Source of the DNA: a virus
Strand: one strand, 5' to 3'
IMG/VR virus record: IMGVR_UViG_3300021599_001357
Location: 1-47,370 of that record
DNA: 47,370 bases
This document shows, piece after piece, positions 11,478 to 34,742 of the stretch (its first letter is position 1; each line of letters opens with the position of its first letter). The notes under the pieces are model-generated. The model made no database searches. It was not told the DNA's origin and was given only the letters and a program-made list of their open reading frames with translations. The translations under genes were made by a program, and so were the position numbers.

Positions 11478-11481
11478 ATGT

Positions 11482-11601: not shown

Positions 11602-11652
11602 AAAAATTTCTAGGATTTAGTAGGAAGACCCGAACATTTCCAGACCTTCCAA

Positions 11653-11724
11653 CTCCCCCGGCAAGATTCGAACTTGCGACAAATCGGTTAACAGCCGACG
11701 ACTCTACCGCTGAGCTACAGGGGA
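11653..11724 (-). tRNA. tRNA-Asn (GTT)
   Basis: Acceptor TCCCCTG pairs with CGGGGGA, with discriminator G. Anticodon stem GTCGG/CCGAT closes loop CTGTTAA. No encoded CCA. Confidence 0.92.
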
Positions 11725-11788
11725 ATGATGGATTAAGTGTGATATACCTCATAAGGATATAACAGAGACTTAACCTCTATCCTTTTAT

Positions 11789-11817
11789 ATAGTAACAAAC
11801 TTTTGCAAGTTTGTCAA
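11789..11817 (-). promoter_or_regulatory. Sigma70-like promoter before tRNA-Asn
   Basis: Perfect TTGACA, 17 bases, then TACTAT (4 of 6). It starts one base after the 3' end of tRNA-Ser(GGA), and lies about 65 bases ahead of tRNA-Asn. Confidence 0.55.
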
Positions 11818-11904
11818 CGGAGAGAGTGGGATTTGAACCCACGGTGAAGTTGCCCCCACACAGACTTTCCAGGTCTGCTCCTTAAACCACTCGGACACCT
11901 CTCC
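11818..11904 (-). tRNA. tRNA-Ser (GGA)
   Basis: Acceptor GGAGAGG pairs with TCTCTCC, with discriminator G. Anticodon stem CAGAC/GTCTG closes loop CTGGAAA. Class II long variable arm. Confidence 0.93.
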
Positions 11905-11913
11905 AATAAAGAC

Positions 11914-11941
11914 ATCATACCACACTGAGAATGAATGTCAA
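11914..11941 (-). promoter_or_regulatory. Sigma70-like promoter before tRNA-Ser(GGA)
   Basis: Perfect TTGACA, 16 bases, then TATGAT (5 of 6). It fills the short spacer between tRNA-Arg(ACG) and tRNA-Ser(GGA). Confidence 0.6.
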
Positions 11942-12016
11942 CACTCTCTGTAGGATTCGAACCTACGACACCTTGATCCGTAGTCAAGTGCTCTGAGTCC
12001 ACTGAGCTAAGAGAGT
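11942..12016 (-). tRNA. tRNA-Arg (ACG)
   Basis: Acceptor ACTCTCT pairs with AGAGAGT, with discriminator G. Anticodon stem CTTGA/TCAAG closes loop CTACGGA. The A34 would need deamination to inosine by TadA to read CGC and CGA. Confidence 0.92.
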
Positions 12017-12020
12017 ATAG

Positions 12021-12092
12021 TTCTGAGAGTAGGATTCGAACCCACGAATGGCGGGACCAAAACCCGCTGCCTTACCACTTGGCGACCTCAGA
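12021..12092 (-). tRNA. tRNA-Gln (TTG)
   Basis: Acceptor TCTGAGG pairs with TCTCAGA, with discriminator A. Anticodon stem GCGGG/CCCGC closes loop TTTTGGT. No encoded CCA. Confidence 0.9.
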
Positions 12093-12096
12093 GTGG

Positions 12097-12167
12097 GGTG
12101 CCGTATGGGAATTGAACCCATCTAGGTGGTTCCACAAACCACTGCCTTACCACTAGGCTAACGACAC
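12097..12167 (-). tRNA. tRNA-His (GTG)
   Basis: Acceptor GTGTCGT pairs with ACGGCAC, with discriminator C73 as in tRNA-His. Anticodon stem GTGGT/ACCAC closes loop TTGTGGA. The base at -1 is T, not the usual encoded G. CCA follows C73 directly, the only readable tRNA here where I see this. Confidence 0.9.
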
Positions 12168-12169
12168 AG

Positions 12170-12242
12170 TGGAAACAACTGGACTTGAACCAGTGGTCTT
12201 TCGATTATCAGTCGAATGCTTTACCAACTAAGCTATGTTTCC
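12170..12242 (-). tRNA. tRNA-Ile (GAT)
   Basis: Acceptor GGAAACA pairs with TGTTTCC, with discriminator A. Anticodon stem TTCGA/TCGAA closes loop CTGATAA. Separated from tRNA-His by two bases. Confidence 0.93.
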
Positions 12243-12263
12243 TTGGTATTCCTAACGGCCCAA

Positions 12264-12337
12264 CGACCCATACGGGATTCGAACCCGTGATCTCCACCGT
12301 GACAGGGTGGCGTGATAGACCGCTACACTAATGGGTC
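12264..12337 (-). tRNA. tRNA-Asp (GTC)
   Basis: Acceptor GACCCAT pairs with ATGGGTC, with discriminator G. Anticodon stem CCACC/GGTGG closes loop CTGTCAC. Confidence 0.93.
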
Positions 12338-12341
12338 AAGG

Positions 12342-12423
12342 TGGGAGGAACAGGATTTGAACCTGTGAAGGCAGAGCCGTCTGATTTACAGTCAGATTCC
12401 TTTAACCACTCGGAAATCCTCCC
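12342..12423 (-). tRNA. tRNA-Tyr (GTA)
   Basis: Acceptor GGGAGGA pairs with TTCCTCCC, with discriminator A. Anticodon stem TCTGA/TCAGA closes loop CTGTAAA. Class II variable arm; 82 bases. Confidence 0.93.
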
Positions 12424-12461
12424 GAACAGTTTATGTTTAGAGACCGAACTGCGGCGGTCTA

Positions 12462-12533
12462 TGGGACATCTCGGATTCGAACCGAGGACTAACCGGTTAA
12501 AAGCCGGATACTCTACCGCTGAGTTAATGTCCC
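12462..12533 (-). tRNA. tRNA-Lys (TTT)
   Basis: Acceptor GGGACAT pairs with ATGTCCC, with discriminator A. Anticodon stem CCGG/CCGG closes loop CTTTTAA. No encoded CCA. Confidence 0.92.
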
Positions 12534-12551
12534 AAAGAGTTAAATTTTCAA

Positions 12552-12597
12552 GGTTCGAATCGTGGTCTCTCTCGACCACTTAGCTAGAATACCACCG
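12552..12597 (-). pseudogene. tRNA-like relic
   Basis: Reads GGTGGTA, then TAGCTAAGTGGT (a typical D-arm string), then a perfect GTGGTC/GACCAC hairpin, then ATTCGAACC. The T-loop is in inverted orientation and no 3' acceptor complements GGTGGTA. It looks like a rearranged tRNA fragment. Confidence 0.3.
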
Positions 12598-12649
12598 TTC
12601 GGTCTCTTAGGATGGACTGGTGGACACTTAAGAAACTGTCACAGACAAC

Positions 12650-12683
12650 AAAAAAGGGGAGGAAACTTTTGGTTTCTCTCCCC
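12650..12683 (-). terminator. Rho-independent terminator (minus strand)
   Basis: Eleven-bp stem (GGGGAG plus GAAAC against GTTTC and CTCCCC, one bulged base) with a 5-base loop, followed on the minus strand by six T. It ends the transcript carrying tRNA-Arg(TCT) and the 33-aa gene, and separates them from the rest of the tRNA array. Confidence 0.8.
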
Positions 12684-12709
12684 TGTCTTTTGCTTTTATG
12701 GATTACATC

Positions 12710-12811
12710 TTACATATGTCTTTCCATGTCAGCAAACAGGGGAGTACCCTCGATATGCCAATAGCGGCAATCAAGAATGTTAATCTGTTTGTTGTTCATT
12801 TGAAAAGACAT
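12710..12811 (-). CDS. Very small protein (33 aa) inside the tRNA array
   Basis: Starts MSFQMNNKQINILDCRYWHI and ends ADMERHM. It lies between a TATAAATA late promoter (12832-12839) and the terminator at 12650-12683, so it forms its own small transcription unit. No family recognised. Confidence 0.45.
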   Translation of the reverse strand: MSFQMNNKQINILDCRYWHIEGTPLFADMERHM

Positions 12812-12831
12812 TGTTTTCGACCTAAGTGATT

Positions 12832-12839
12832 TATTTATA
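12832..12839 (-). promoter_or_regulatory. T4-type late promoter (TATAAATA)
   Basis: Exact TATAAATA on the minus strand, 20 bases upstream of the 33-aa gene. Confidence 0.6.
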
Positions 12840-12840
12840 A

Positions 12841-12860
12841 GACTTTTTTGTTAAAAAGTC
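12841..12860 (-). other. Hairpin just downstream of tRNA-Arg(TCT)
   Basis: GACTTTTT and AAAAAGTC around a 4-base loop. It may act as a processing or stability signal for the tRNA transcript. Not a convincing terminator. Confidence 0.4.
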
Positions 12861-12863
12861 AAA

Positions 12864-12937
12864 CGCCTCAGGTTGGATTCGAACCAACGACTAACCGCTT
12901 AGAAGGCGGATACTCTAGTCCACTGAGTTACTGAGGC
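12864..12937 (-). tRNA. tRNA-Arg (TCT)
   Basis: Acceptor GCCTCAG pairs with CTGAGGC, with discriminator G. Anticodon stem TCCGC/GCGGT region closes loop CTTCTAA. Transcribed from the perfect promoter at 12955-12983. Confidence 0.92.
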
Positions 12938-12954
12938 ATGTTTAGTATGTAGTT

Positions 12955-18604: not shown

Positions 18605-21292
18605 ATGGAATCTGAAAACAAAAAACAATACGATTATTCATTTCATAATGATCAAATTGGATTGGGGATAGAGTATCCTACAGAACTAAATGCAAAAAAA
18701 CTATATGCGGTTGGATGTTATTCTGCAGAAGACTGGGAATATATTCATGAAGTTTTAATTCGAGATGGAACTCTCGAAGATAATATACCGTGTGAATGTG
18801 TGGAGTGTATAGATTACAAAGAACACAGTCCCACAAGGGCAGTTTACTTATTGAATGATGAAGAAGCTAAGGAACTCCGTAATCATCCGAGAGTGCAATA
18901 TGTACATGAAAACTTTGAAAGTTATCCTCAAAAATATAAAGCACCACCAGAAGAACTGAAGTTTAGTGCTCTCAGAAACTATAGATATGAGACCCCGACA
19001 AAGCAATATAGAAACTGGTTTGATAATAATCAACTTCCAACTTCACCAAACAGTTCGGATTTGAATCGAAGTGGTTATCAACTTTTTAGATGTGTGAACA
19101 AAGAGAATCCTTGGCACACTGGACTAAGTACAGGTTCAAATCAAATTCTTTCAGATAAAATTCAATATTATGGTGATGGATCAGATGTTGACGTAATTGT
19201 TGGAGATGAAGGATTTTGGATAGGTCACGTAGAATTTCAAAGTAACGCAACAGGAGGGGGTCCAACAAAGTATATTGGTGGAAATGTATTGAAAAGTGGA
19301 TTTTCAAATTCTTCAACTACAGGGACTTGTGATATTCTGGATCTAGTTTTAGATGCACCATATTACATAGACCCAGAATGGTTTGAGTCTTCACCTAGTA
19401 CAAGATTAATAACTCGTTGGGATGGAACAAAAGTTCCTGTCGAAAATGTTGCAAGATCTTGGTGGGGAGATTCTTCTCAAAGATCTGTTGGATTTTCTAC
19501 GATAGGAATCGTAGGAGTCACTACAAATTATACTAGAGTTTCTTGTTTGGGAAGTAACACAGCTAGACCAACTAATGGCACCGACCATGGAACAGATTGT
19601 GCTGCAAATACTTTTGGAAGAACTCAAGGATGGGCATTTAATTGTAACAAATGGGTCATAAACGCTTATGGAAATAGTGGGTCTGACATAGAACAGTATT
19701 TTAATATAATGAAATTGTTTCATTTATATAAACCTATAAATCCAAAATATGGAACAAAAGATCCCACAATTAGTAGTAACAGTTGGGGATATCGTTCAAC
19801 ATCTCATAGAACTAATGGATCTTATTTCCATAGAGTAGGTCTTAATACTTTAGGTCTTGGGATAGGAACAAGTTATACATCATCATCACTCCCAAACTTT
19901 ATGAGGTACGTGGGAGTATATGGGGATGGAAATAGAATGAAAGGTGAACACCTGCCTAATTCATATCTATCTGCCGGAGAAGAGTTAATAGATGCAGGAG
20001 TTATTTTTGTTGCAGCTGCGGGCAACAGTAACCAAAAACAAGTAAGTTCTGATCATCCGGATTATAACAATTTCTGGAGTATTGTTGGTGGAGATTTGGG
20101 GATTACTGGACTAGCATTACCCAATGCAGAACTTCCAGGAACTACAAATTTTTCTGCACAGAGCAATACTTCTAAAAGAATTATTACCAATGGAAGCAGT
20201 GGTATTGTAACAAGTATAACGAATAGTTTATTGGGAGCTGGATCTCTTACATCATCAACAACTCCATCAGTTGGAAATAATGACGATGGATATTGGATTT
20301 TAACTTTACCCTTTAGTATTCAGTTTGGGGGTCTTACTACAAACGTAATTTATCCAGGAACTAATACATACATTACTTTTGGTGGAGGATCGCAGGTTTA
20401 TAGTGGATTGAGTTTTAGTAATCCACCTTTCCACAAAATTATGATGTCCTGTGCAGATAATTCTTGTCAAAGATTATACTATGGTGTAGAAGGATCTACT
20501 CCCAATAGAACTTATAGAATAAGATATGAAGGAAATGCTTCTACAGGTGGAGTTTTAGGATCACCTGGGATGGTTTATGAAGCTGTTTTTTATGAAAATT
20601 TACCTACAAAAATTGACATCCACATGGGTGTCAACAATAGATACTCTTCTGGTTTAGGTTCCGCATCTAGTTTTTATGCCTCAACTCACGATGAATTTGG
20701 AGTCACTGCATATAATTCAACAAATAGAAGAGGATTTCCACAACAACTCGGTAAATTTATTGGAACAGATGGAAATGTTGTTTATCCTGTAATTAATATT
20801 GGAGCTCTTGATGATTCCTTTGATCCAGGAGGTAAAGAGAGGAAAGTTACTTATAGTGATATGGGTAATGAAATAGACTGTTATGCCCCCGCAGATGGCA
20901 CATTAACAGCACAAGCTCCTGTTGGGACCTACCTCAGAGCAGATATCTATCCGGGACTTACATTAACGCCATATGATGGCAAATTTAGTGGAACTAGTTC
21001 GGCATGTCCCGTTGCTTGTGGGTTAATTGCAACTAAATTGCAATTTAATAGAGATTGGACTTGGTTAGATATACGAAACTGGTTGAAGACAGTTGTTGAT
21101 GATGCTAATACTGATCAATTTTATACTGGAACTGAATCCACGACTGCAACTGATGAGAATTGGATTGATGTGAATAGTTTAGAAGGTGGGAGACCCATAG
21201 TAATATGGGATGCTTTAACTGGAAATGAACCAGAAGGATATAGTCTTAGAATTTCTGGTGCATTTACTTTAAGTGGGATAACCATACAATAA
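18605..21292 (+). CDS. Subtilisin-like serine protease on a probable virion protein
   Basis: 895 residues with a complete subtilase triad in order: Asp201 in VDVIVGDEG, His328 in NGTDHGTDCAAN, and Ser798 in GKFSGTSSACPVA. The oxyanion Asn is in the SSNSWGYRS segment, and an AAAGNSN motif lies near 475. His to Ser is about 470 residues, far more than usual, because a beta-rich domain is inserted after AAAGN. A roughly 110-residue N-terminal part may be a propeptide or attachment domain. No signal peptide. It lies within a structural operon, so it may be a virion-associated protease. Active residues look intact. Confidence 0.75.
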   Translation: MESENKKQYDYSFHNDQIGLGIEYPTELNAKKLYAVGCYSAEDWEYIHEVLIRDGTLEDNIPCECVECIDYKEHSPTRAVYLLNDEEAKELRNHPRVQYVHENFESYPQKYKAPPEELKFSALRNYRYETPTKQYRNWFDNNQLPTSPNSSDLNRSGYQLFRCVNKENPWHTGLSTGSNQILSDKIQYYGDGSDVDVIVGDEGFWIGHVEFQSNATGGGPTKYIGGNVLKSGFSNSSTTGTCDILDLVLDAPYYIDPEWFESSPSTRLITRWDGTKVPVENVARSWWGDSSQRSVGFSTIGIVGVTTNYTRVSCLGSNTARPTNGTDHGTDCAANTFGRTQGWAFNCNKWVINAYGNSGSDIEQYFNIMKLFHLYKPINPKYGTKDPTISSNSWGYRSTSHRTNGSYFHRVGLNTLGLGIGTSYTSSSLPNFMRYVGVYGDGNRMKGEHLPNSYLSAGEELIDAGVIFVAAAGNSNQKQVSSDHPDYNNFWSIVGGDLGITGLALPNAELPGTTNFSAQSNTSKRIITNGSSGIVTSITNSLLGAGSLTSSTTPSVGNNDDGYWILTLPFSIQFGGLTTNVIYPGTNTYITFGGGSQVYSGLSFSNPPFHKIMMSCADNSCQRLYYGVEGSTPNRTYRIRYEGNASTGGVLGSPGMVYEAVFYENLPTKIDIHMGVNNRYSSGLGSASSFYASTHDEFGVTAYNSTNRRGFPQQLGKFIGTDGNVVYPVINIGALDDSFDPGGKERKVTYSDMGNEIDCYAPADGTLTAQAPVGTYLRADIYPGLTLTPYDGKFSGTSSACPVACGLIATKLQFNRDWTWLDIRNWLKTVVDDANTDQFYTGTESTTATDENWIDVNSLEGGRPIVIWDALTGNEPEGYSLRISGAFTLSGITIQ

Positions 21293-22581: not shown

Positions 22582-23435
22582 ATGAGATACCGACGATTAA
22601 TGCCAAAGGAATTAACAACGTACAAATACCTACTGGTGGAATCCCTAAAATTGGAATTCAAGGTCCTAGTATAATTCCAACTATAGATCCACCAGTAACA
22701 AGATCAACTGAAATTCCTGTAATTAAAGGTCTGGCTCTTCCTATTTTCCAGTCACCAGACCCCTCTATTAATTATCCCGTAATTAATGTCCCAACACAAG
22801 AAGAGTTTGATGCTGCAGTTAAGGCAGAAAGAGAAAAACAAGCGCAAGAACAACTAGATAAATCAAGAGGACTTCCAGATACTACCCTCCCTCCTCAATT
22901 GCCTGCTGCGGTTCAAACCCCCCCTACTCAAGCGCCCACTCCAGTAATAGAAGTTCCAGAGAAACCTAGATTACAAGTTGCTGGATTGAATATCGATCTA
23001 CCGGATCCTTCTTTAGTTGCTACTGCAGGAGCTGTTGCTGTGGTAACTACAGCAGCTACAATTGCTAGTACAACGGTGTTGAACGCTCTTAAAAATGCTG
23101 CTGAACCTTTTATTAAAGAAGCAACCAAAAACAAATTCAAAATTAAAATCAAACAAGTTAAACCCGTATTACATTATGTACTAGCCGAATCGGGTCATAT
23201 AGATGTCTTTGAATACTCCTCTGAAGGAACTCGTCTAGTAGAACAAGTGGATAACATAGAACAATATATCCGTGATCAAGTAGATATCAATGCTCTCTAC
23301 GAAATAGACAACAAAATTATTATCGATGATGTCATCGCAGACAAGTTTACAAAAGAAGGTCAGAAAAGATTTAAACCTCTGTTTGCTCCTGCAAAGAAAG
23401 TGGCAAAGAAATTGTCGGCTAGGCTTTCTTTTTAA
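22578..23435 (+). CDS. Pro-rich conserved virion-type protein (285 aa)
   Basis: Starts MNEIPTINAKGINNVQIPTG, overlapping the previous gene by 4 bases. The first 140 residues are rich in Pro, Ile and Thr (TLPPQLPAAVQTPPTQAPTP). A small hydrophobic stretch (LVATAGAVAVVTTAATIAST) may be a membrane helix. The last 90 residues form a globular domain (KIKIKQVKPVLHYVLAESG, VDINALYEIDN). Conserved in cyanophages as I recall. Function unknown. Its 3' end overlaps the convergent radical-SAM gene by 17 bases. Confidence 0.6.
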   Translation: MNEIPTINAKGINNVQIPTGGIPKIGIQGPSIIPTIDPPVTRSTEIPVIKGLALPIFQSPDPSINYPVINVPTQEEFDAAVKAEREKQAQEQLDKSRGLPDTTLPPQLPAAVQTPPTQAPTPVIEVPEKPRLQVAGLNIDLPDPSLVATAGAVAVVTTAATIASTTVLNALKNAAEPFIKEATKNKFKIKIKQVKPVLHYVLAESGHIDVFEYSSEGTRLVEQVDNIEQYIRDQVDINALYEIDNKIIIDDVIADKFTKEGQKRFKPLFAPAKKVAKKLSARLSF

Positions 23436-24654
23436 TTACGTTCCATATTCTTTGAAGTTCTGGGAAAGTTTCCACTACATTTTCATTCCTCAATTTGTCA
23501 AATTTTCTCATTGACTTCAAGAATTCTGGAATTAAAAGTTGTTCCTGATATAAATCAATATACTTTATCAGACTTTCATAGAATATTACAGACCTTTTTG
23601 AACCATTAGGAATTAAGAAATTGTCAATATGATTTCTTATATTTTCTTTTGCTGTTTCCTTTGTTTTTTTATCTAAAATCCAAACGGACATTTCTCTTGG
23701 ATATTGCATAAAGTTTAAGAAGAAAAAATCTATATCCTTCATCAGTCCACTATTATACAAATATTGATGCAACTTAACTACTTCAAAAATGTTTAACGCT
23801 TGGACTGTACAATCAAAATGCAATTCATGTGTAATTGGTTTATTTTTGAATCTTTCTCTGAACTGCTCCGCATGAGATACAAATCTATCCCAATTGAATC
23901 CTTTTCGGATTAACTCACCTCTTGATCCAATACCGTCAACGCTAATGTGTACTTCTACACTCTTGTTGAACTTATCCCACATATCAAAAATGTGTCTACC
24001 TTTATAAACAAGATTACTAAAGTTACTATTGTAAGCTAAAGTAACTTTATCATTTCTACCTAACTCAATTAGTTTATCAAGTATTTTCCAATGTTCATCT
24101 ATAATTAAAGATTCACCTCCAGAAAAATATAGGTGTTTTACCATATTAAGGTAGGGTTCAGTCTCTTCATAAGTTTTTTCAGATGCGTTCCATCTACCAG
24201 AGATTACACCATTTTGTTCTAATTCAAAAGTAGAGCTTGAGGTCCAACTACACATTCTACATTTGAAATTGCATTTGTTGCTGAGTTTTAAGTCCCACCA
24301 AACAAATCCAGGTTCATTAACAGTGTAATCATCATTTGTACCATATACTAACTTTCTATTTTCATAGAACAAATTATTAATGAGATCTTGTCTTAAGGAA
24401 CTTTTTCCTGCAGCTTGATTATTATAACATACCTGACAACTTTCGCTAGGTATTTCATTAATCATATTCTCGCGGAGTTTTCTTATTGGCTCATCATTCC
24501 AGATTTCCCATAAAGGCTTTTCTTTAATATCCCCATAAGTATACTCAGAAACACAACATGGTTTAACTTCACCATCTTGTCGAATGTCTAGAGCTAACCA
24601 AGGGGCTATACAAAAAACTTCACCCTTTGTTTTAATTTTTTTCTTATCAATCAT
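23419..24654 (-). CDS. Radical SAM protein (SPASM/twitch-like), copy 2
   Basis: 411 residues. The radical SAM cluster motif CNFKCRMC places C128, C132 and C135. It is followed by GGESLI, the SAM-binding motif. The N-terminal part has extra cysteines (C15, CC33-34, CQVC at 73-76) that resemble an auxiliary twitch/SPASM cluster domain, here before the core rather than after it. It starts 8 bases before the end of a homologous gene upstream. Such proteins modify peptides, proteins or nucleotides. No peptide substrate gene was found. Confidence 0.8.
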   Translation of the reverse strand: MIDKKKIKTKGEVFCIAPWLALDIRQDGEVKPCCVSEYTYGDIKEKPLWEIWNDEPIRKLRENMINEIPSESCQVCYNNQAAGKSSLRQDLINNLFYENRKLVYGTNDDYTVNEPGFVWWDLKLSNKCNFKCRMCSWTSSSTFELEQNGVISGRWNASEKTYEETEPYLNMVKHLYFSGGESLIIDEHWKILDKLIELGRNDKVTLAYNSNFSNLVYKGRHIFDMWDKFNKSVEVHISVDGIGSRGELIRKGFNWDRFVSHAEQFRERFKNKPITHELHFDCTVQALNIFEVVKLHQYLYNSGLMKDIDFFFLNFMQYPREMSVWILDKKTKETAKENIRNHIDNFLIPNGSKRSVIFYESLIKYIDLYQEQLLIPEFLKSMRKFDKLRNENVVETFPELQRIWNVIKKKA

Positions 24655-26035
24655 CGCTCAAAATCCTTTCTAGTTCAGGAAAAATTTCTAGAGAATTTTC
24701 GTTTCTTATGGAATCTAGTGCAGACATATAAGATTTGAAGTATGGAACTAGATGATCTCTCTTCTCTTCAGACAAAAGTTTGAGAACAGAAATGTATTGT
24801 TTAATGGACTCATGAGCTTTTGCTGGAGCAAGATAATTTTCAATATGATATTTAATCTTTTGGCCCAACAATCTCCTTGATTCGGAATCAAGAATTAGAA
24901 CCGACATATAATCCGGATTATGTAAGATGCACAAAGAGAAGTCATTCCAGTCAGTAATAATTCCTCTTAAATAAAGTTCTCTATGAGCATCCATGGCATG
25001 AAAACAATTCAAAGCCTGGAAAACGTAGTTGATCTTTACGCTTGTATGGGGAAACTTACTTCTAAACAATCTAAAATTATCCAGAAACTTTTGCCAATCG
25101 AATCCTTTTCGAATTAGTTCTCCTCTTTTTTCTGTACCATCAAAGCTTACAGATAAAGAAAGATTCGGAAATTTTTTCCATAGGTCTAGAACATTATTGT
25201 TCTTATATTTTAGTGTACTGAAGTTGGTATTGTATGACAATCTAACGACAGTGTTTCTCTTTTTCTGAATTAATTTGCGTAGAATCTTGTAATGGTGATC
25301 TGAAATTAGAGGTTCACCTCCAGCAAAATAAACTTCTTCTACAATATCGTAGAGAGGTTCGATATCTTGATGCACCATATCTACATCAATTTTGGGATAC
25401 TCACCTTCAATATTGAATTCTTTTCTCATCTCTTGTTCCCAAGCACTACTGTACCCAGGACTACACATTCTACATTTAAAGTTGCAGATATTATTTAATC
25501 TGAAATCCCAGTAGACCAGATTGAATCTATCAAAGGTTCCGTCTTCTTTAGTTTCTTTAACGTAGTCATAATGTTTTGCATACGTCTTATTCATGTGAAG
25601 TCTTAGAGATCCATGACCGATTTCTTCCTCTTTATAACATGATGTACAATAACTGCACTTTTCACCTGCTATCATGTTTCTACGAAGTTCTCTCATCTTC
25701 TCACCGTTCCAGATGTCTTTTAGTGATTCATCTAGGAGAGAACCCATTTTAAAATCTCTTGGAGTCCCTTCACATTCAGTAGCAACAATTTCCAAAGGAT
25801 TTATTGGCTCAGCAATTTCTTGCATACTGCCAATAAGTTCTTTCAAACCATCCAGATCATACTCATCATCTAGATTATCTGTATCAACAATTATAGGAGG
25901 TTCTTTTTTCTTTTCATCAGGAATTCCTTCTGTGCCAGTTATAGGCATCATACAACATGGATAAACATCTCCGTTAGGACCAATGTTCATGTGAGTCCAT
26001 GGAGCCATGCAAAAAGTCTTGTTCATATCAATCAT
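24647..26035 (-). CDS. Radical SAM protein (SPASM/twitch-like), copy 1
   Basis: 462 residues. Radical SAM motif CNFKCRMC at C184, C188 and C191, then AGGEPLI. The N-terminus has the same cysteine-rich region as its neighbour (FCMAPWTHMNIGPNGDVYPCC, then CSYCTSC near 127-133). It is longer by an acidic insertion (DTDNLDDEYDLDGL). The two proteins are clear paralogues, and overlapping start and stop codons suggest they are made together, perhaps as a complex. Substrate unknown. Confidence 0.8.
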   Translation of the reverse strand: MIDMNKTFCMAPWTHMNIGPNGDVYPCCMMPITGTEGIPDEKKKEPPIIVDTDNLDDEYDLDGLKELIGSMQEIAEPINPLEIVATECEGTPRDFKMGSLLDESLKDIWNGEKMRELRRNMIAGEKCSYCTSCYKEEEIGHGSLRLHMNKTYAKHYDYVKETKEDGTFDRFNLVYWDFRLNNICNFKCRMCSPGYSSAWEQEMRKEFNIEGEYPKIDVDMVHQDIEPLYDIVEEVYFAGGEPLISDHHYKILRKLIQKKRNTVVRLSYNTNFSTLKYKNNNVLDLWKKFPNLSLSVSFDGTEKRGELIRKGFDWQKFLDNFRLFRSKFPHTSVKINYVFQALNCFHAMDAHRELYLRGIITDWNDFSLCILHNPDYMSVLILDSESRRLLGQKIKYHIENYLAPAKAHESIKQYISVLKLLSEEKRDHLVPYFKSYMSALDSIRNENSLEIFPELERILSDD

Positions 26036-26688
26036 ACCATTTTGATGTTTCTATCTGTTTTTGGCTTAATGCCATCCCATACTGATTTATCTAACCAATG
26101 TTCACTAACATATTTAATATATTTTTTATTGGGATCTTCAGTAATGAATTTGAAAATATCGGGATTATTATAGTCAATGGGAAAATCTAGTAGTTCACTT
26201 ATCCACTTTAAATAATATTGTTTGTGAAGGAAAAATGCTTCATTATCTAAAAAATGAACTTTAAAATTTTTTCCAATTATGTTATTTTGATAGTAATGCA
26301 TTGCGATTGGCAAAGTTACCTCACCACGTACTCTTTTTTGTTGTTCTGAATTGATGTTTTGGTCTCGTACAATTATACAAATTTGAACATCAATTCCTAA
26401 AGACTGGGCTTTTTCTGCAAATTCTCGAACCTTTGGAATATATCTTACTCCATCATAATAAAATGGGCAACTTACATTTGCCAACCAATAGTCATATCCC
26501 CTAAAATCATTCTCCGATAGTTCCTCCGGATTTACCCAATACTTAGCAAAATATTCTTCATCACTTGGAACCCAATACTTATCTAAAAGAGATTTCCATC
26601 CACCCACTTTGGGGTGAGTACTAAAAACTCTACTAAAAAAATGATTACCAGATCCTTGTGGACCTGTAATAATTACTAGTTTCTTCAT
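26032..26688 (-). CDS. P-loop protein, sulfotransferase- or kinase-like, copy 2
   Basis: 218 residues. MKKLVIITGPQGSGNHFFSR has a phosphate loop at residues 9-16. IIVRDQNINSEQQKRVRGEV lies where sulfotransferases have the 3'-phosphate binding RDxxxxxxS; here it reads RDQN. Paralogue of the gene just upstream. Coupled to radical SAM copy 1 by an overlap. Could use PAPS or a nucleotide. Confidence 0.6.
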   Translation of the reverse strand: MKKLVIITGPQGSGNHFFSRVFSTHPKVGGWKSLLDKYWVPSDEEYFAKYWVNPEELSENDFRGYDYWLANVSCPFYYDGVRYIPKVREFAEKAQSLGIDVQICIIVRDQNINSEQQKRVRGEVTLPIAMHYYQNNIIGKNFKVHFLDNEAFFLHKQYYLKWISELLDFPIDYNNPDIFKFITEDPNKKYIKYVSEHWLDKSVWDGIKPKTDRNIKMV

Positions 26689-27305
26689 AATGACTTAAGA
26701 GGTATGCCAGTTTTGTTGCAATTATCTAAGAAATATTCTTCCACATGATGGACGTATTTATCATTAGGGTCATTGGACAAAATTTTATCTACCCTAGAAT
26801 CATCCCAAGCAATTGGAATGTTGAGATCTAAACTTTTTAAATACTCTTGTTTATAAAGATATAACAATTCATAACTTAAGAAGATTGGATTAGTAAATGT
26901 AGGCAGTTGATTCATGAACAGAGTCAAGGTATTTTCTTTTCTAAGACGATTTTGCTGATGTCTAAGAATGTTTTGATCTCTACCAATTACCAATATTTGA
27001 GCTTCGATGCCAAGTTTTTTGACTTCATTGGCAAATAACATAATATTTGGTTCCCACTTTTTCTCTTGGATACCGAGAGGAACACTAATACTTGTAAAAA
27101 AATAGTCGTGAGTAGACCAATCAAAATCTTTGAGTCTTGAAGGATCTTTCCAATACTCACAAAATGGTTCAGCAAATCTATGTGCTTCCCAATAGTTTTC
27201 AAGTAAAGTCTTCCACCCGAATACTTCAGGATGAAGTGAAAATATTTTAGACCAAAGATGATTACCAGACCCTTGTGGTCCAGTAAGAATTACCATTTTT
27301 TTCAT
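26685..27305 (-). CDS. P-loop protein, sulfotransferase- or kinase-like, copy 1
   Basis: 206 residues from the ATG at 27305 (MKKMVILTGPQGSGNHLWSK). The phosphate loop and an RDQNILRHQQNRLRKE segment match copy 2, about 40 percent alike by eye. The ATGA overlap with the upstream gene fixes the start; the frame continues upstream but lacks support. Function unknown, with the same caveats as copy 2. Confidence 0.6.
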   Translation of the reverse strand: MKKMVILTGPQGSGNHLWSKIFSLHPEVFGWKTLLENYWEAHRFAEPFCEYWKDPSRLKDFDWSTHDYFFTSISVPLGIQEKKWEPNIMLFANEVKKLGIEAQILVIGRDQNILRHQQNRLRKENTLTLFMNQLPTFTNPIFLSYELLYLYKQEYLKSLDLNIPIAWDDSRVDKILSNDPNDKYVHHVEEYFLDNCNKTGIPLKSL

Positions 27306-27556
27306 TTTAGAAATAACAAATAAATTAATCCTGGTATGATAATAAAAAATTGTGGAAGGAAGTTCATTATAATTGAACGTTCTTTCCACTTAAATCCCAC
27401 ATAAGTCCAACCAGATGCTCCGATTAGTTGTAGGATGCTATTCCAAGGGGTTAGTCCCAGTACATGAAACACCATTGCGATGAGTATTGTACAAGCACTA
27501 ACCCATTTGATTACACGAGTTTTATCTTTGCGGCGCCTTGTTTCAAGAGTACTCAT
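27302..27556 (-). CDS. Small membrane protein (84 aa)
   Basis: Starts MSTLETRRRKDKTRVIKWVS, a basic cytoplasmic N-terminus, then three hydrophobic segments (CTILIAMVFHVLGL; ILQLIGASGWTYVG; LPQFFIIIPGLIYLLFL). It is translationally coupled to the P-loop protein. No family with known function recognised. Confidence 0.6.
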   Translation of the reverse strand: MSTLETRRRKDKTRVIKWVSACTILIAMVFHVLGLTPWNSILQLIGASGWTYVGFKWKERSIIMNFLPQFFIIIPGLIYLLFLK

Positions 27557-27572
27557 AATATATTATTAATTA

Positions 27573-28247
27573 TCAGACAGCAATGGCAGTATTTTTATTG
27601 CTAATTTCAAGAAGATCAACACGCATTTGATCTACCATTTCTAAAATACGTTCTTGAACTTCTGCAGCACCTTCTACAAGTTTTTCAAGTTTCCAACCAC
27701 CAATGTTGGCATGGAAACCTTCGTCTTTAGCAATAGCAGCGTAACGAGAAGAAATAAACTCATCTTCTACACACTCAGCCATTTCGTTCCATACTGCCTC
27801 TGCACGACCCTCAGCGACGAGTTGGTATGCAGCAAGAGCAGCGGGGTCAGATGATGCTTCATACTTATCTAGGAGAGTGGCACCCTTAGCCTGGGGCGAT
27901 GCAGCTTCTGCAGCGAAAGCAGCATCAACATCTACCTTCTCACCAGAGATATGTTCAATTACTTCCTTAACCATACGGAAGTGTTTTGCTTCATCTTGTG
28001 CTTGTTTTGTTAATAATTCAAGTTCGGTAACATCCATAGATGCAGGAGCAGAAGCAACCTCAGCAGCGATTGCCTTCATGTTCATTGCTTCGTTTACCAT
28101 ACGACCACGGAAATGATTGACCATATGTTCTTTACTTGGATTTGAATCAAAGAAACGACGAACATTCAAACGAGATTGTTCAAAAAGTTCAGCGTTATCT
28201 TTTTTAATTTTATTTACGAATTCTTTTCCTGTTAACATTTTATTCAT
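27573..28247 (-). CDS. Ferritin-like di-iron protein
   Basis: About 224 residues. Two ExxH motifs (DEAKHFRMVKE in the middle, then KDEGFHANIGG near the end) and a Glu in an early helix (NEAMNMKAIAAEV) fit a four-helix di-iron fold. No close family recognised, so it could be an oxygenase, an aldehyde-deformylating-type enzyme or an iron scavenger. A TATAAATA late promoter (28264-28271) is 17 bases upstream of the ATG at 28247. A second ATG nine bases later is possible. Confidence 0.65.
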   Translation of the reverse strand: MNKMLTGKEFVNKIKKDNAELFEQSRLNVRRFFDSNPSKEHMVNHFRGRMVNEAMNMKAIAAEVASAPASMDVTELELLTKQAQDEAKHFRMVKEVIEHISGEKVDVDAAFAAEAASPQAKGATLLDKYEASSDPAALAAYQLVAEGRAEAVWNEMAECVEDEFISSRYAAIAKDEGFHANIGGWKLEKLVEGAAEVQERILEMVDQMRVDLLEISNKNTAIAV

Positions 28248-28263
28248 GTTATATACTTGCAAT

Positions 28264-28271
28264 TATTTATA
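28264..28271 (-). promoter_or_regulatory. T4-type late promoter (TATAAATA)
   Basis: Exact TATAAATA on the minus strand, upstream of the di-iron protein gene. It may drive the whole island down to 23419. Confidence 0.65.
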
Positions 28272-28320
28272 TTTGGTATTTACAAAGACTTAAACTCTTT
28301 TTGTAAAAACTATAATATTT

Positions 28321-29283
28321 TTATTTCATAAACATTTCCTGGTTTATTGGAGTCATATCTGTAGATTTAACTTTTACTACTTCCACATCATCATTAGAAA
28401 ATCCATTCAATACATACCAATTTTTAATGAAATCTATTTTGTTAATCCAAATTCTATACATTTTACGTATTAAATTTTCATTTAATTTGCCTAATTTCAT
28501 CTCAGAATATAAAACTTTAAGACCGTTAATAGTTTCATCTTCATTTAAGAACCAATTACAATCCCACTGATGTGTAATCATTGTCTTTAATAAATCATTA
28601 TCCGATTTGTTTAATTTAGTTAGATTAAACAAATGATCTAAGTTTTTATTGTGATGATCTTTAATTCTTTTTTGTGATTCTTCTGATAATTTTTGAAATC
28701 CACTAACAGTTAACGAATTTGTTAACTTATCTATTTCTGTTAATGGCCCAGAAAACCATTTCATATCTGGAATTGGAGCATGTCCATTATCCCAACTAAC
28801 ACCAACGTTATCATCATGTTCAACTTTTATAGATCTTAGTGTACAAAAAAGACTTGTATTCATTAAACAAATAAAATATTTGCACTTAAACATGTCCATC
28901 ATTGGATGTGAAATATTTTTTTCCAACATTTCTTTTAATGGATAATATACGGGTACGTGTAATCTAGATATTCTAATTTTTTGTTTTAATCCATAATCCG
29001 ATGAAAACTGTTCAGGGTGATGATTGGGATCATTACACCATGCATGTCGATAATGAATATGTCCATCTGTCTCATAGGAAGTACCATAAAACATAAAAAC
29101 ATCTGACCAGATGGGTTCACCGTTTACCCAACTAATGTCAGACATATTTTTATGATAATACTCCACTTTGCCGCGAAGAGTACAATTATTAAAATACACT
29201 TTGTCACTCATAGTGAGACAAGCTCCCAAAAAATGACATCCATCCCAACCCAAATGTCCAATTAAAATATTGTTATTAGTCAT
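28321..29283 (-). CDS. Hypothetical protein of the sulfotransferase island (320 aa)
   Basis: Starts MTNNNILIGHLGWDGCHFLG. It is rich in His and Trp (HAWCNDPNHHPEQF, MITHQWDCNWFLNE). A GLGW-type N-terminus could hold a nucleotide, but no clear motif is visible. No signal peptide. It overlaps the sulfotransferase-like gene by 4 bases, so the two may work together. I do not recognise its family. Confidence 0.5.
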   Translation of the reverse strand: MTNNNILIGHLGWDGCHFLGACLTMSDKVYFNNCTLRGKVEYYHKNMSDISWVNGEPIWSDVFMFYGTSYETDGHIHYRHAWCNDPNHHPEQFSSDYGLKQKIRISRLHVPVYYPLKEMLEKNISHPMMDMFKCKYFICLMNTSLFCTLRSIKVEHDDNVGVSWDNGHAPIPDMKWFSGPLTEIDKLTNSLTVSGFQKLSEESQKRIKDHHNKNLDHLFNLTKLNKSDNDLLKTMITHQWDCNWFLNEDETINGLKVLYSEMKLGKLNENLIRKMYRIWINKIDFIKNWYVLNGFSNDDVEVVKVKSTDMTPINQEMFMK

Positions 29284-29855
29284 ATCAATGTAACCAAGAT
29301 GTCCGAAAATGTTTTATTAACTACAATACTTTGTCCAAAATTATTGTATATCCATTCAGATGTAAAGTATTCCCACTTACATTTATTTAACATCCCAAAT
29401 TCTAACATACAAGAATTTTGTTTCATGATCTCACTTAACATTGTGCCACTGTTTTTATATGCACTATAATTTGGATATTGAATTTGAAATCCTCCAGCTT
29501 CATGCCACCAAGCATAACTAACCATATCTGGACGATATACCATTAATATCCGATCATTAGGAAACTTCTTTTGTATTTGATCTAGATAATAAGACCATTC
29601 ATGACTTTTAATAAGTTTGCATCCCTGAGGTTCAATCCATGCCTGATCAATATAATCTGGATCAAGAATTGGTTCAAACTCCATACCAGGTCCAAAATAC
29701 GCTCCTCTGTGTCCAGTATAACTATGATGAACGTATTCACGCTCAGGTGTGCGGTCAGAGGTATTCATACCAGACATCGTTTCTAACGTCTGTGCGATAC
29801 CACTCCAACGGGATCCAGGAACTCCAGTAAAAAATATTCTATTAGGTAAATACAC
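29280..29855 (-). CDS. Sulfotransferase-like P-loop protein
   Basis: 191 residues. RIFFTGVPGSRWSGIAQTLE near the N-terminus is a 5'-phosphosulfate-binding loop. KLIKSHEWSYYLDQIQKKF and then DRILMVYRPDMVSYAWWHEA resemble the central strand and the 3'-phosphate loop. Likely transfers sulfate from PAPS to a glycan or other acceptor, but the catalytic base is not certain. Confidence 0.6.
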   Translation of the reverse strand: MYLPNRIFFTGVPGSRWSGIAQTLETMSGMNTSDRTPEREYVHHSYTGHRGAYFGPGMEFEPILDPDYIDQAWIEPQGCKLIKSHEWSYYLDQIQKKFPNDRILMVYRPDMVSYAWWHEAGGFQIQYPNYSAYKNSGTMLSEIMKQNSCMLEFGMLNKCKWEYFTSEWIYNNFGQSIVVNKTFSDILVTLI

Positions 29856-29860
29856 AATTA

Positions 29861-30583
29861 TTAAAGAGAATTATTATAGAGATAAAAATCCATCTCATGT
29901 AAATTTAAAAAATTTTTATTTTTCATACAATACTTAGTTAAAATATCATAACAAAATTTATAATTTTTTATTTTTGATTCATACTTTTGAATAGGATTAT
30001 AGTGATTTATTGTGACTTGTCTTCCCAATATGTTTGATATTTTTTCATTCAAATTTTCATCAAGTTTTAAAAAAGTTATATCAAGATCATATCTAAAACA
30101 AAAATCTATCCATGAAAATTGCGGTCTAGTATGGCAGTCAAATATAAATTTATTATTTTTTAGTTCTATGATAAATTTATCATAGGATTTTATATCATCC
30201 TCATCAAAATCTGGCCTTTCATTCAAAAATTCATTTATTCCAGAAATCCACCTTTTTTGCGGATCTCTAGTAATGACTAAAAACTTATAACCACTTCTAT
30301 ACTTTTCGGGGATATCTATATAATCTAGATAAAATTTAGAATTTGGGGGCACAAAAGTAGTTACTGGTCTAAAGTTTAAAGAATTTGTAATTGATGTAGA
30401 AGCATTTTTTGAAATTGGTATATAAATTATTTTTTCTTCTTCCAATTCATAAAGAATATCTACAGGTGTTATAGTCTCAATTTCAAATTCTTCTTTTGGA
30501 AAATATTTAAAAGATATTGAGTTATAAACAAGATCGTTATATTTTTTCCAATCCAAATTATATACTTTATCTAGATAATTCAT
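29861..30583 (-). CDS. Sulfotransferase (Sulfotransfer_2-like)
   Basis: 240 residues. IIYIPISKNASTSITNSLNF matches the PAPS-binding loop of carbohydrate sulfotransferases, where K, AST and S bind sulfate and phosphate. VITRDPQKRWISGINEFL supplies the classic RDPxxRxxS segment. WIDFCF and HYNP follow. AT-rich with a strong codon bias towards AT, suggesting recent acquisition. It probably acts on a surface glycan. Divergent from the methyltransferase at 30615. Confidence 0.75.
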   Translation of the reverse strand: MNYLDKVYNLDWKKYNDLVYNSISFKYFPKEEFEIETITPVDILYELEEEKIIYIPISKNASTSITNSLNFRPVTTFVPPNSKFYLDYIDIPEKYRSGYKFLVITRDPQKRWISGINEFLNERPDFDEDDIKSYDKFIIELKNNKFIFDCHTRPQFSWIDFCFRYDLDITFLKLDENLNEKISNILGRQVTINHYNPIQKYESKIKNYKFCYDILTKYCMKNKNFLNLHEMDFYLYNNSL

Positions 30584-30614
30584 AACATATAAAATAGTAT
30601 TTTGGACAATCTAA

Positions 30615-31130
30615 ATGAATCAAGAACAATTGAATGAATACTTTGCAACCAAATGGACTAGCAATTTAGATCAGTATCTATATTCTGGTTGGAATTTAGT
30701 GAATAATGTTTTTGATAATGAATGGGTATTGGATGTTGGTTGTGGTCCAAATCCATTTAAAGGTAAAATTAAAAATTTAATTGGAATAGATCCAGCATTT
30801 AATGAGGCTGATTTTAAAGTGTCCCTAGAAAAATTTGAAACCAATCAAAAATTTGATGTTGCCTTTTGTCTTGGGAGTATTAATTTTGGCGATAAGACTA
30901 AAATTATAACTCAAATTCAACTTATTGTAAACCTATTAAATTCAAGTTCAAGGATTTATTGGAGATGTAATCCAGGATTATTTGATCACCAAAACGAAGA
31001 TTGTAGAAAAATAACTTTTTATCCTTGGAATGTTGAAGATCATTATGAACTATCTAAACATTTTGGATTTGAGTGTATAGAAACAAAGATTGATACAAAT
31101 AACAGAATTTATGCAGAATGGAAAAGGTAA
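30615..31130 (+). CDS. Class I SAM-dependent methyltransferase
   Basis: 171 residues. VLDVGCGPNPFKGKIKNLIG is SAM motif I, then GIDPAFNEADF is motif II. DVAFCLGSINFGDKTK supplies motif IV. Likely modifies a small molecule or a glycan. It lies alone on the plus strand inside a mainly minus-strand island, and its stop directly abuts the stop of the convergent metalloprotease gene. Confidence 0.75.
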   Translation: MNQEQLNEYFATKWTSNLDQYLYSGWNLVNNVFDNEWVLDVGCGPNPFKGKIKNLIGIDPAFNEADFKVSLEKFETNQKFDVAFCLGSINFGDKTKIITQIQLIVNLLNSSSRIYWRCNPGLFDHQNEDCRKITFYPWNVEDHYELSKHFGFECIETKIDTNNRIYAEWKR

Positions 31131-31877
31131 TCAATACTTACCCTCTGTACAATACTCTGATTTCTTGTTTGGATAGTATGGATACAGACCTTCCTGTGGT
31201 TTCATCCATCCACAACCAATCAACCATTCCATCGTCATAGGTGTAGGTCTCACCTGTTCCCATAGAGGACCATTAGCACACATCTCTAGGTGCTTGACTG
31301 TAGTGTTTGATTGTTCTTCTGCCCAGTTAGCATCTGCTTCCCAGGGCACAGCACGGGACATTCCCATGCTCTCATATGAAGCTCTTGTCATCTTCATCAA
31401 CCAAGCAGGGATCTCACTATCCTGATGAACCTGTGCCATGAAAGATGTTTTGATCCCACCGCCCATACAATCTTGAACGACATGCCATCCTTCATGTCTC
31501 ATCGTTCCAAGAAACTCTCTAGGATCTTTAGCAAGATCTTCATTCACAAAGAACCTATTATATTCTGGTTTGTATAGTCCTACAGTTCTTGGAGTGAAGT
31601 AACGTGATGGTCCAACATACACAGGGACATTCACTTTATCTAGCGCAGTCAGAATTGCTTTGATCTCTTCTCTGAATGGGTCAAAGTCTTTATTTTCTAG
31701 GATTTTTGATTGTGGAGTGAGTTGTTCTACACCTTCAGTACATTCCAAAAGGATCATACATCCCATCGCCGCAAGACTATTCGCCTTTACGGTTGGTTGT
31801 TTCTTGACTAATGTATTCGCACTTACTGGAAGTACTAAAGACATTGATAAACTAATTGACATTAGGAGTTTTTTCAT
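31131..31877 (-). CDS. Secreted HExxH zinc metalloprotease-like protein
   Basis: 248 residues. A signal peptide (MKKLLMSISLSMSLVLPVSA) is followed by a domain with HEGWH at residues 128-132 (TMRHEGWHVVQDCMGGG), a zinc-binding HExxH site. A likely third ligand is Glu180 in VPWEADANW. Several cysteines may form disulfides in the periplasm. Substrate unknown. It could trim the cell envelope or be carried in the virion. Coupled to the upstream gene by a 4-base overlap. Confidence 0.7.
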   Translation of the reverse strand: MKKLLMSISLSMSLVLPVSANTLVKKQPTVKANSLAAMGCMILLECTEGVEQLTPQSKILENKDFDPFREEIKAILTALDKVNVPVYVGPSRYFTPRTVGLYKPEYNRFFVNEDLAKDPREFLGTMRHEGWHVVQDCMGGGIKTSFMAQVHQDSEIPAWLMKMTRASYESMGMSRAVPWEADANWAEEQSNTTVKHLEMCANGPLWEQVRPTPMTMEWLIGCGWMKPQEGLYPYYPNKKSEYCTEGKY

Positions 31878-32672: not shown

Positions 32673-34742
32673 TTAGAACCTAAATTTGAACTTTGCAGCA
32701 ACGGATGTATTGGAAGCACCATTGGCAATCTGATGAACTCCTTCGATGAATACCATTTCCTTATAGTCAACAGAAGCAGCAACCTCAACAGAGTTATCAG
32801 TCGCATAAGAACCTTCTACACTGACTCCAAAAAGATCCTGTTTCTTACCACCGAAACGATGAGAAAGAACAAGTCCAATTTCACCAGTATGATAAGTTTC
32901 ATTTATCGCATCAACACTTCTTGTAGACTGAATAGATCCACTCTCAATGAAAGCGTCTCTACCATAGTTTCTAGTAGTGTGACCTACAAATGGAGTGATA
33001 TTCTTATGTGCGTGCCAGAAGAGTCTGTTATTCACCCACCACTCTTGTCCTGTTGTGGAACTTTCGTTATTAAAGACACCCTGAACAGTTCTGGAAACAT
33101 TATATTTATTCCGAACAATCGCAGCATTAGTTAAGAGTGAAAATGTATTTCCACGAAGCATATTAAAAACTCCAATATGACTTTTATTCAGTTTAGAAGT
33201 ACTATCGACACCATCCAAGTTTACATTTACATTATTATATTGAGCACCAATCGTCCAGGTTGGTTTAATATCAATCTCAATACCACCACCATAGATGAAT
33301 GACTTAGCAGAGTATCCGTTATCCGCAGAAGACCACGCATAATAGTTCTTACTGAATACTCGGACTCTATCAGTGGTTGGTTCGGATGGTTCGTGATTCA
33401 GAAGACCTTGCAATCCTTCACCCATCGCATCCATAACTTCGTGTTGATCTACACGACCAGAAAGGACATCGTTAGTATTTTCAGTATCAACGGAAAGAAG
33501 TAATGATGTTACAACTGTTCCATCACTATAAGTATCTTGTTTCAATAATGGAGTTTGAGTCGTAGTTGCAAAGTCTCTTCTAATCTTTTGAGATCCATCC
33601 TCTTCAGATACATTATGAGTTACCTCAGTAGTAACAACAACTGGAAGTCCTGGTGCGGGAACAGTCACAGAGTTTAATAGTGTTGGTGGTTGTGGTTGCG
33701 GTTCAGGAGTTGGCTCTGGTGTAGGTTCAGGAGTTGGCTCTGGTGTAGGTTCTGGTTCTGGAGTAGGTTCAGGAGTTGGCTCTGGTGTAGGTTCTGGTTC
33801 TGGAGTAGGTTCCGGTTCAGGTGTTGGAGTTGGAGTTGGTGCTACCTCATCAACAGAGGGAGCATCTGGATTGTTTGGTGCAACAGGAGTAAATGATTGA
33901 CCATTTGCTGTTGCAGTTCCAGGTTGACTATCAACTAAAAGAACTGGTGATAGTGCAGTATCTCCAAGGTTAAACACTGCAAATCCTAAGAGATAGTCAC
34001 CATCAGCACCTACTTGATAAGTTGAATACTGCCATCCAGTAGAACCAAAAGAACCTGTTGAATAATCACCTGTTCCCGGATTAGTAAATCCAAGCAATGC
34101 ATAGTTTTGAAGTTGGTTATTAACTGTTACTGACGGGGATGAACCTGCACCTTGATAAACAAGTGAAGTAATAGAACCATCATTGAAAGGAACATAGTCA
34201 GTTCCAATATAATTCCAAGACATCGTATAAACTTTTCCAGTTTCCAAAGTGACTGATTTTGTAATCCAAGAAGCATCAGTGGGGTTTGGATTTCCAAGAC
34301 CTGATGCTTGTTGTTGTTGAGTAAGAAGGTCTCTTATTGCTTGATTTTGTTCTGGTGTTAAACCAAGTGATTCTGTTGCTTGGTTAAATGTTTGTTGACC
34401 GTTCGGTTGTAGTGCAGCACCAGCAGTTCCATAAGGAGCAAACTCCCAAGTGGTTGGGGTTACTGCAGGTGCATGGTATGGGTTAGGAGAACCGTCTTGT
34501 AACGTTGGACTCCCTACTGCAGGAAAAGAACCAGCATTGAAGATAACTGGATTATCAACAACACTAACACCAGTTCCTCCTCCAGTGATAGTACTATCTA
34601 AGGTTCCCGTTTGAGTTCCAGTATTCCATCCTGAAGTATTTCCAGTCTCAAAATCTGTACCAGAAATTGTATCTGCGAATGCTGTTGGTGCTCCCATCAA
34701 AAGAGCAGACGCTACAGCAAGCGCCCTTGTAGCGTAAGACAT
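32673..34742 (-). CDS. Outer-membrane beta-barrel / autotransporter-like protein
   Basis: 689 residues. Signal peptide MSYATRALAVASALLMGAPT with a cleavage after AFA. An extracellular-type N-terminal domain rich in Gly, Thr and Ser follows. Next is a Pro/Thr/Glu linker of PTPEPEP repeats (about residues 303-350). The C-terminal 270 residues alternate hydrophobic and polar residues like a beta-barrel, and the protein ends in FKFRF, a terminal Phe of the kind read by the BAM machinery. This would place a phage protein in the host outer membrane. The leader carries a possible translational switch (34746-34832). Confidence 0.65.
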   Translation of the reverse strand: MSYATRALAVASALLMGAPTAFADTISGTDFETGNTSGWNTGTQTGTLDSTITGGGTGVSVVDNPVIFNAGSFPAVGSPTLQDGSPNPYHAPAVTPTTWEFAPYGTAGAALQPNGQQTFNQATESLGLTPEQNQAIRDLLTQQQQASGLGNPNPTDASWITKSVTLETGKVYTMSWNYIGTDYVPFNDGSITSLVYQGAGSSPSVTVNNQLQNYALLGFTNPGTGDYSTGSFGSTGWQYSTYQVGADGDYLLGFAVFNLGDTALSPVLLVDSQPGTATANGQSFTPVAPNNPDAPSVDEVAPTPTPTPEPEPTPEPEPTPEPTPEPTPEPEPTPEPTPEPTPEPTPEPQPQPPTLLNSVTVPAPGLPVVVTTEVTHNVSEEDGSQKIRRDFATTTQTPLLKQDTYSDGTVVTSLLLSVDTENTNDVLSGRVDQHEVMDAMGEGLQGLLNHEPSEPTTDRVRVFSKNYYAWSSADNGYSAKSFIYGGGIEIDIKPTWTIGAQYNNVNVNLDGVDSTSKLNKSHIGVFNMLRGNTFSLLTNAAIVRNKYNVSRTVQGVFNNESSTTGQEWWVNNRLFWHAHKNITPFVGHTTRNYGRDAFIESGSIQSTRSVDAINETYHTGEIGLVLSHRFGGKKQDLFGVSVEGSYATDNSVEVAASVDYKEMVFIEGVHQIANGASNTSVAAKFKFRF

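Follow-up and report, generated by a model that had tools for sequence, protein, structure and literature searches.

Virus record IMGVR_UViG_3300021599_001357, analysed over positions 1-47,370 (the window hereafter, 47,370 nucleotides in full), carries an island of ten genes of which nine lie on the minus strand. In order of coordinate these are RS1 (23419-24654, 411 aa), a radical S-adenosylmethionine (radical-SAM) protein with an N-terminal SPASM/twitch domain; its paralogue RS2 (24647-26035, 462 aa); PL1 (26032-26688, 218 aa), a sulfotransferase-like P-loop protein, and its paralogue PL2 (26685-27305, 206 aa); TM84 (27302-27556, 84 aa), a small hydrophobic, presumed membrane protein of DUF6552 (Pfam PF20189, E 1.1e-13), located between PL2 and FE and absent from a preliminary description of this DNA; FE (27573-28247, 224 aa), a diiron-oxygenase-like helical bundle; U320 (28321-29283, 320 aa), of a fast-evolving family with an N-terminal P-loop-like stretch; ST1 (29280-29855, 191 aa), a distant sulfotransferase-like protein; and ST2 (29861-30583, 240 aa), sulfotransferase-like by motif only. 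MT (30615-31130, 171 aa), a class I SAM-methyltransferase-like protein with invariant DVGCG and IGIDP motifs, is divergently oriented on the plus strand. Overlaps of 4-8 bp connect RS2/RS1 (8 bp), PL1/RS2, PL2/PL1 (4 bp), TM84/PL2 and ST1/U320, a pattern typical of operons with translational coupling. The most probable start codon of PL2 is the ATG at 27305, in place of the listed GTG at 27389. PL1, PL2, U320, ST1, ST2 and MT belong to no family at normal thresholds. The island genes are real and under purifying selection: dN/dS (nonsynonymous to synonymous substitution rates) against relatives is 0.03-0.27 for every one of them, tightest for FE and PL and loosest for MT and U320. Since the gene order in addition recurs in many viral contigs, the island is not a product of chance.

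The cassette of FE and PL genes is found at 177 viral loci with 121 distinct FE sequences, so that the conserved neighbourhood sought for these pairs in other phages does exist. The PL2 search yielded 40 viral loci, the cupin profile 71, and the FE profile 290 candidate stretches, 80 of which were retained. Of 176 loci with FE, the anchor of the cassette, 173 also have PL, 150 MT and 112 ST1. Three arrangements dominate: FE-GAT-CUP-PL-ST1-MT, where CUP is a three-histidine cupin; MT-FE with a divergent PL-PL pair, embedded in T4-like genes for the head-tail connector, the tail-sheath stabiliser and structural proteins; and, as in the window, MT-ST1-(U320)-FE-TM84-PL2-PL1, at times followed by RS2-RS1. 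At L134 (6225-7001) and its relatives, a gene fusing an APS-kinase-like (adenosine 5'-phosphosulfate) and a HIGH-type nucleotidyltransferase part lies between GAT and cupin. The 121 dereplicated cassettes possess either PL2 (75) or the cupin (43), never both; the three with neither are on truncated contigs. Among 21 whole records of 88-249 kb, ten contain two to three PL genes and no cupin, and eleven one PL and one cupin. Fisher's p of 1e-29 for this exclusivity is overstated, as the loci are related by descent and these very queries had been used to collect them. On the trees of FE and of PL1, no fewer than 4-5 changes between the PL2 and the cupin state occur. Because the two are mutually exclusive and their state has switched repeatedly, PL2 and the cupin look like alternatives for one role. 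PL1 is present without PL2 in all cupin-type cassettes, therefore PL1 need not pair with PL2.

The motifs GPQGSGNH and RDQN, from which the overlapping P-loop paralogues were originally recognised, are present and conserved in the PL proteins. A tree of 105 PL proteins divides PL1 from PL2 by a single branch (support 100/99), with one long-branched and two outlying rows unclassified; together with the constant association of RS2 and RS1, this bears out the earlier view of the tandem pairs as old, conserved paralogues. The AlphaFold2 model of PL2 (predicted local distance difference test, pLDDT, 90) retrieves tyrosylprotein sulfotransferase-1 (TPST1) as the top Foldseek match in the PDB (E 5.6e-4, template modelling score 0.44), with adenylate kinases nearly equal, while sulfotransferases lead in the viral structure library BFVD. 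The PL stretch TGPQGSGNHL...HPEV is in register with VGLPRSGSTL...HSLV of a Sulfotransfer_3 protein, and hhalign of PL against Sulfotransfer_3 yields E 8e-4, compared to E 0.2-0.7 for the controls FE, MT and cupin. PL resembles tyrosylprotein and Sulfotransfer_3-type sulfotransferases in a probable P-loop fold of their kind, in the register with RSGTTL...HPDV-type loops and in the Arg after the second core strand. It differs from them in possessing GPQGSGNH in place of the basic Thr-Thr loop, and it remains below all Pfam thresholds. The loop GPQG[SA]GNH is invariant and contains no basic residue of a 5'-phosphosulfate loop; at the 3'-phosphate site the Arg is invariant, but the position eight residues further is Gln instead of the usual Ser. 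Sequence and model together suggest that PL1 and PL2 are themselves sulfotransferase-like, with an altered yet invariant phosphate loop. Given the near-complete invariance of GPQGxGNH, Arg and QQ across the family, they may be active enzymes with an altered donor site. PDB sequence searches with the profiles of PL, FE, ST1 and MT retrieved no significant relative.

FE, described at first as a di-iron protein, possesses the full ligand set for it: E53, E86xxH89, E146, E150 and E176xxH179 are kept at 99-100% in 122 sequences, forming the four-helix carboxylate/His set with two ExxH motifs of ferritin-like diiron proteins. Just two His are within the ExxH motifs; H45 and H99 are invariant too. 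The AlphaFold2 model is an all-helical bundle (pLDDT 92), for which TenA, UndA, CADD and AetD are the top Foldseek matches, all weak (E 0.01 or weaker); weak profile matches are to R2lox, RNR-R2 (the ribonucleotide reductase subunit), AurF and PaaA_PaaC. According to a review (PMC13108848), heme-oxygenase-like enzymes are 3H/3C natural-product oxygenases, and the ferritin-like ones are four-helix proteins with variable ligands. FE shares the helical bundle and the complete carboxylate/His set with the ferritin-like diiron oxygenases (R2lox, AurF, PaaA/PaaC), while its best fold matches, weak as they are, lie with the heme-oxygenase-like dimetal oxidases (UndA, CADD, AetD). It has no significant sequence family and is best regarded as a diiron-oxygenase-like protein of putative activity. 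In the cupin, H139, H141 and H180 are invariant in 53 of 53 sequences.

Two sulfotransferase-like proteins had been claimed in the upstream part of the island. For ST1 the claim holds weakly: its relatives reach E values of 0.0015 and 0.036 against Sulfotransfer_3, short of the cut-off, its best score of 19.3 bits misses the Pfam Sulfotransfer gathering threshold (27), and the KSH and Arg motifs are nearly invariant. ST2 finds no match in Pfam, and its resemblance is confined to the motif level. A PL2-type cassette may contain as many as five copies of U320. The copies have diverged within the cassette (window 28321-29283; loci L020 and L021) while neighbours are 80-95% identical, a possible diversification. 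MT is present in 105 and TM84 in 30 of the 121 dereplicated cassettes. A further gene at window 8748-9452, outside the cassette, groups with the MT family.

RS1 and RS2 match the NCBIfam profile NF033640, 'twitch domain-containing radical SAM', at 328.7 and 368.4 bits (curated cut-off 170), and the cysteine-rich N-terminus noted earlier in these overlapping paralogues is their SPASM/twitch domain. CxxxCxxC is invariant in the alignments of both (C128/C132/C135 in RS1, C184/C188/C191 in RS2). In every one of 38 close loci the two genes lie side by side, with RS1 directly downstream, and most of these loci lack FE/PL; conversely, 101 of the 121 dereplicated FE cassettes lack RS2-RS1. The pair is inseparable and constitutes a module separate from the FE/PL cassette. 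What distinguishes it from NF033640 proteins in general is the obligate tandem arrangement at the edge of an exchangeable slot. A viperin-like role in anti-phage defence was discarded, as pVip scores only 41 bits against the 368 bits for NF033640, with merely generic viperin cross-matches.

RS2 is the fixed edge of that slot. At a number of loci, L211, L209, L213 and L291 among them, the slot, which lies upstream of RS2, is taken by an adenosine monophosphate (AMP)-binding ligase (PF00501) and a DUF6356 protein, joined in some by an ST2-family gene; the L211 allele (1261-4782) comprises an ST2-family gene, an unknown 286-aa protein, the ligase and the DUF6356 protein, upstream of RS2-RS1. Small membrane proteins thus are found in both alleles, DUF6552 with FE/PL and DUF6356 with the ligase. 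The flanking proteins of L211 are 93% and 88% identical to those of the window, yet the content of the slot differs. In blastn, DNA homology breaks off where RS2 starts (about 26,021), reappears at ST2 (29,860) in L211 and L213 only (71-73% identity in ST2), and sets in again at 31,133. According to breakpoints and gene content, the segment 26021-29860 is swapped and has no DNA homology to the close relatives L211, L209 and L213; blastn breakpoints delimit a second non-homologous piece at about 30595-31132 that covers MT. With conserved flanks, replaced gene content and breakpoints at the RS2 start, the FE/PL and AMP-ligase modules are, as judged from these comparisons, alleles of one slot with RS2-RS1 as its fixed edge. 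The island therefore is not the single pathway first considered possible: RS2-RS1 stands apart as a module, and in close relatives the AMP-ligase module replaces the FE/PL cassette at the same site. FE, PL1, PL2 or a cupin, usually with MT and often with ST1, form a set that is transferred together.

The window cassette is located among tail-fibre and connector genes, a variable block among tail-fibre/neck genes that is replaced between close relatives, as in a host recognition cluster (HRC). According to PMC7029224, the HRC of pelagi- and cyanomyophages is hypervariable and holds glycosyltransferases and radical-SAM cassettes, and a change of surface that counters co-infection is proposed. 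The window shares with it variable cassettes, radical-SAM included, among the tail-fibre/neck genes of T4-like phages; the FE/PL/cupin cassette, its anatomy and a two-allele slot with an AMP-ligase do not appear in the passages of PMC7029224 that were consulted. Enzyme cassettes in cyanophage hypervariable regions are already known, but this cassette, the PL2-or-cupin rule and the two-allele slot appear undescribed. The earlier statement that no described phage system with this set was known agrees with the literature, where no account of the gene set was found among searchable papers, subscription-only papers lying outside the search.

A genome-wide PL scan of cellular genomes yielded five contigs, three of them wholly or partly viral-looking and two chromosomal (Massilia atriviolacea and Janthinobacterium). 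The Massilia/Janthinobacterium clusters (L050-L053) have in common FE, the cupin, PL1 (the form also common to both viral cassette types), ST1 and an MT-like sequence, the last detected at gene level in Massilia and by tblastn in Janthinobacterium. They contain in addition a sulfatase, a 2H phosphoesterase, an AMP-forming ligase, a substrate-binding protein, a nucleotidyltransferase-like gene and a DUF455 protein. A transposase-like gene is situated on one side of the cluster. Among 295 genomes of the family and 399 of the phylum, FE occurs in Massilia itself only, and no match was found on plasmids.

Our tentative interpretation, favoured without reaching even odds, is that the stretch of genes from 26.0 to 31.1 kb represents one allele of a tailoring cassette that can be exchanged within a hypervariable host-recognition region and that decorates a surface molecule, the target and product being conjectural. 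In this scheme FE, as a diiron oxygenase, would oxidise a small precursor. PL and ST1, as sulfotransferase-type P-loop group transferases that probably bind a nucleotide like 3'-phosphoadenosine 5'-phosphosulfate (PAPS), would form or move a small charged group, which MT would cap, with PL2 and the three-histidine cupin as alternative partners at the same step. The product would most likely be placed on a surface glycan or lipid, changing the host envelope and blocking superinfection, or on a tail protein; RS2-RS1, as a separate enzyme pair, may act on the same target. The HRC-type setting supports a role in surface tailoring, because glycosyltransferases and radical-SAM cassettes vary there (PMC7029224). 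Several observations weigh against this interpretation. Lacking both the basic residue and the Ser of the two phosphate sites, PL is unproven as a user of PAPS; adenylate kinases score almost as high as TPST1 with PL2; and a comparison of the PL, ST1 and U320 profiles gave nothing significant outside the P-loop, for which reason direct homology of the three was rejected. The cassette contains no glycosyltransferase, and its neighbours differ from one phage backbone to the next, which leaves the target conjectural. A possible but somewhat doubtful extension is that the cassette encodes a widespread viral pathway of undescribed chemistry, in which a diiron oxygenase and enzymes of sulfotransferase fold, their phosphate loop rebuilt as GPQGSGNH, make and transfer a group other than sulfate and in which cupin and P-loop protein are interchangeable at one step.

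The main rival to surface decoration, unlikely though to be taken seriously, is a diffusible small molecule, either a natural product or a host-signalling metabolite, made during infection. The Massilia/Janthinobacterium clusters look biosynthetic, and their ligase, substrate-binding protein and sulfatase fit such a molecule as well as a surface one; moreover, heme-oxygenase-like dimetal oxidases, the fold neighbours of FE, serve natural-product biosynthesis (PMC13108848). The phage cassettes, however, lack ligase, sulfatase and transporter, and the cassette has its place with tail-fibre/connector genes, in a hypervariable slot where it is swapped as one allele.

Rather improbable is a phosphoramidate route like that of the Campylobacter capsule O-methyl phosphoramidate, in which GAT would free a nucleoside diphosphoramidate, an APS-kinase-like enzyme convert it to the 3'-phospho form, PL/ST1 transfer the group and MT methylate it. 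The best named family of GAT is indeed gamma-glutamyl-CDP-amidate hydrolase (E 2.9e-18), an APS-kinase-like gene is added at nine loci, and 3'-phospho-CDP-amidate is an analogue of PAPS (PMC6429109). The best GAT score, however, is about 103 bits where the curated cut-off is 250, the same profile also matches in 14 of 14 control genomes, and GAT is absent from the window and from most PL2-type cassettes. The glutamine kinase of that route is presumably of the PPDK_N/phosphoenolpyruvate-synthase type, a domain found in none of the 21 phage records, which may be incomplete. On the missing domain and the low GAT score the Campylobacter pathway was rejected as a whole; FE and the cupin would be additions to it without an explained role.

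Quite improbable is the modification of a virion protein or of a peptide in the manner of ribosomally synthesised and post-translationally modified peptides (RiPPs), led by the radical-SAM pair, with tailoring left to the enzymes of the remaining genes. Peptide maturation is common among SPASM/twitch radical-SAM proteins, RS1 and RS2 show weak cross-matches to peptide maturases, and the pair is inseparable, but it is missing from most FE cassettes, as FE/PL is from most RS loci. The small substrate peptide suspected among the nearby genes was not seen: within the open reading frame sizes listed, there is neither a precursor peptide gene next to the pair nor a recurrent small gene specific to it, and the 66-73 aa gene downstream of the pair also follows cassettes without RS. 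Hypermodification of DNA or tRNA is very improbable, for although phage base hypermodification uses P-loop kinases, radical-SAM enzymes and amidotransferases, and the window has 17 tRNA genes, the cassette encodes no domain for modifying DNA or tRNA, the fold evidence favours sulfotransferases and the location is with tail genes.

The window itself is, by its gene content, a fragment of a T4-like cyanophage, an assignment based on its pentose-phosphate genes and on the identity of NrdB (89%), NrdA (84%) and primase (72%) to Synechococcus phage S-SCSM2R. The former, gnd, zwf and talC (6-phosphogluconate dehydrogenase, glucose-6-phosphate dehydrogenase and transaldolase; 4591-7630), are in the same order in S-SCSM2R, and the three together are typical of cyanomyoviruses. 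On either flank of the island the backbone for the most part keeps the gene order of S-SCSM2R in collinear fashion, and none of the cassette proteins was found in the 40 kb of S-SCSM2R compared. The tRNA genes (3903-12938) are mostly clustered, and two of them are for His (anticodons ATG and GTG). A large protein (18605-21292), homologous to an annotated S8-family peptidase of S-SCSM2R, lies between tail-fibre-like and unknown structural-type genes, and a proline/glutamate-rich repeat protein (32673-34742) has a C-terminal region that, judged by eye, is like an autotransporter barrel.

PL, FE and U320 have no tblastn match in 50,697 phage records, queries from distant cassettes included, and no cultured phage searched carries the cassette. 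Because of this absence, culture-based phage biology can be said to have missed an enzyme set that is present at no fewer than 121 distinct uncultured phage loci, some of which lie on contigs 88-249 kb long. With so strict a PL2-or-cupin rule and so clean a swap with the AMP-ligase module, the chemistry of the set and its role, be it surface change, superinfection exclusion or host range, become directly testable. Many wild phages thus probably carry an unknown chemistry, which most likely alters a surface molecule.

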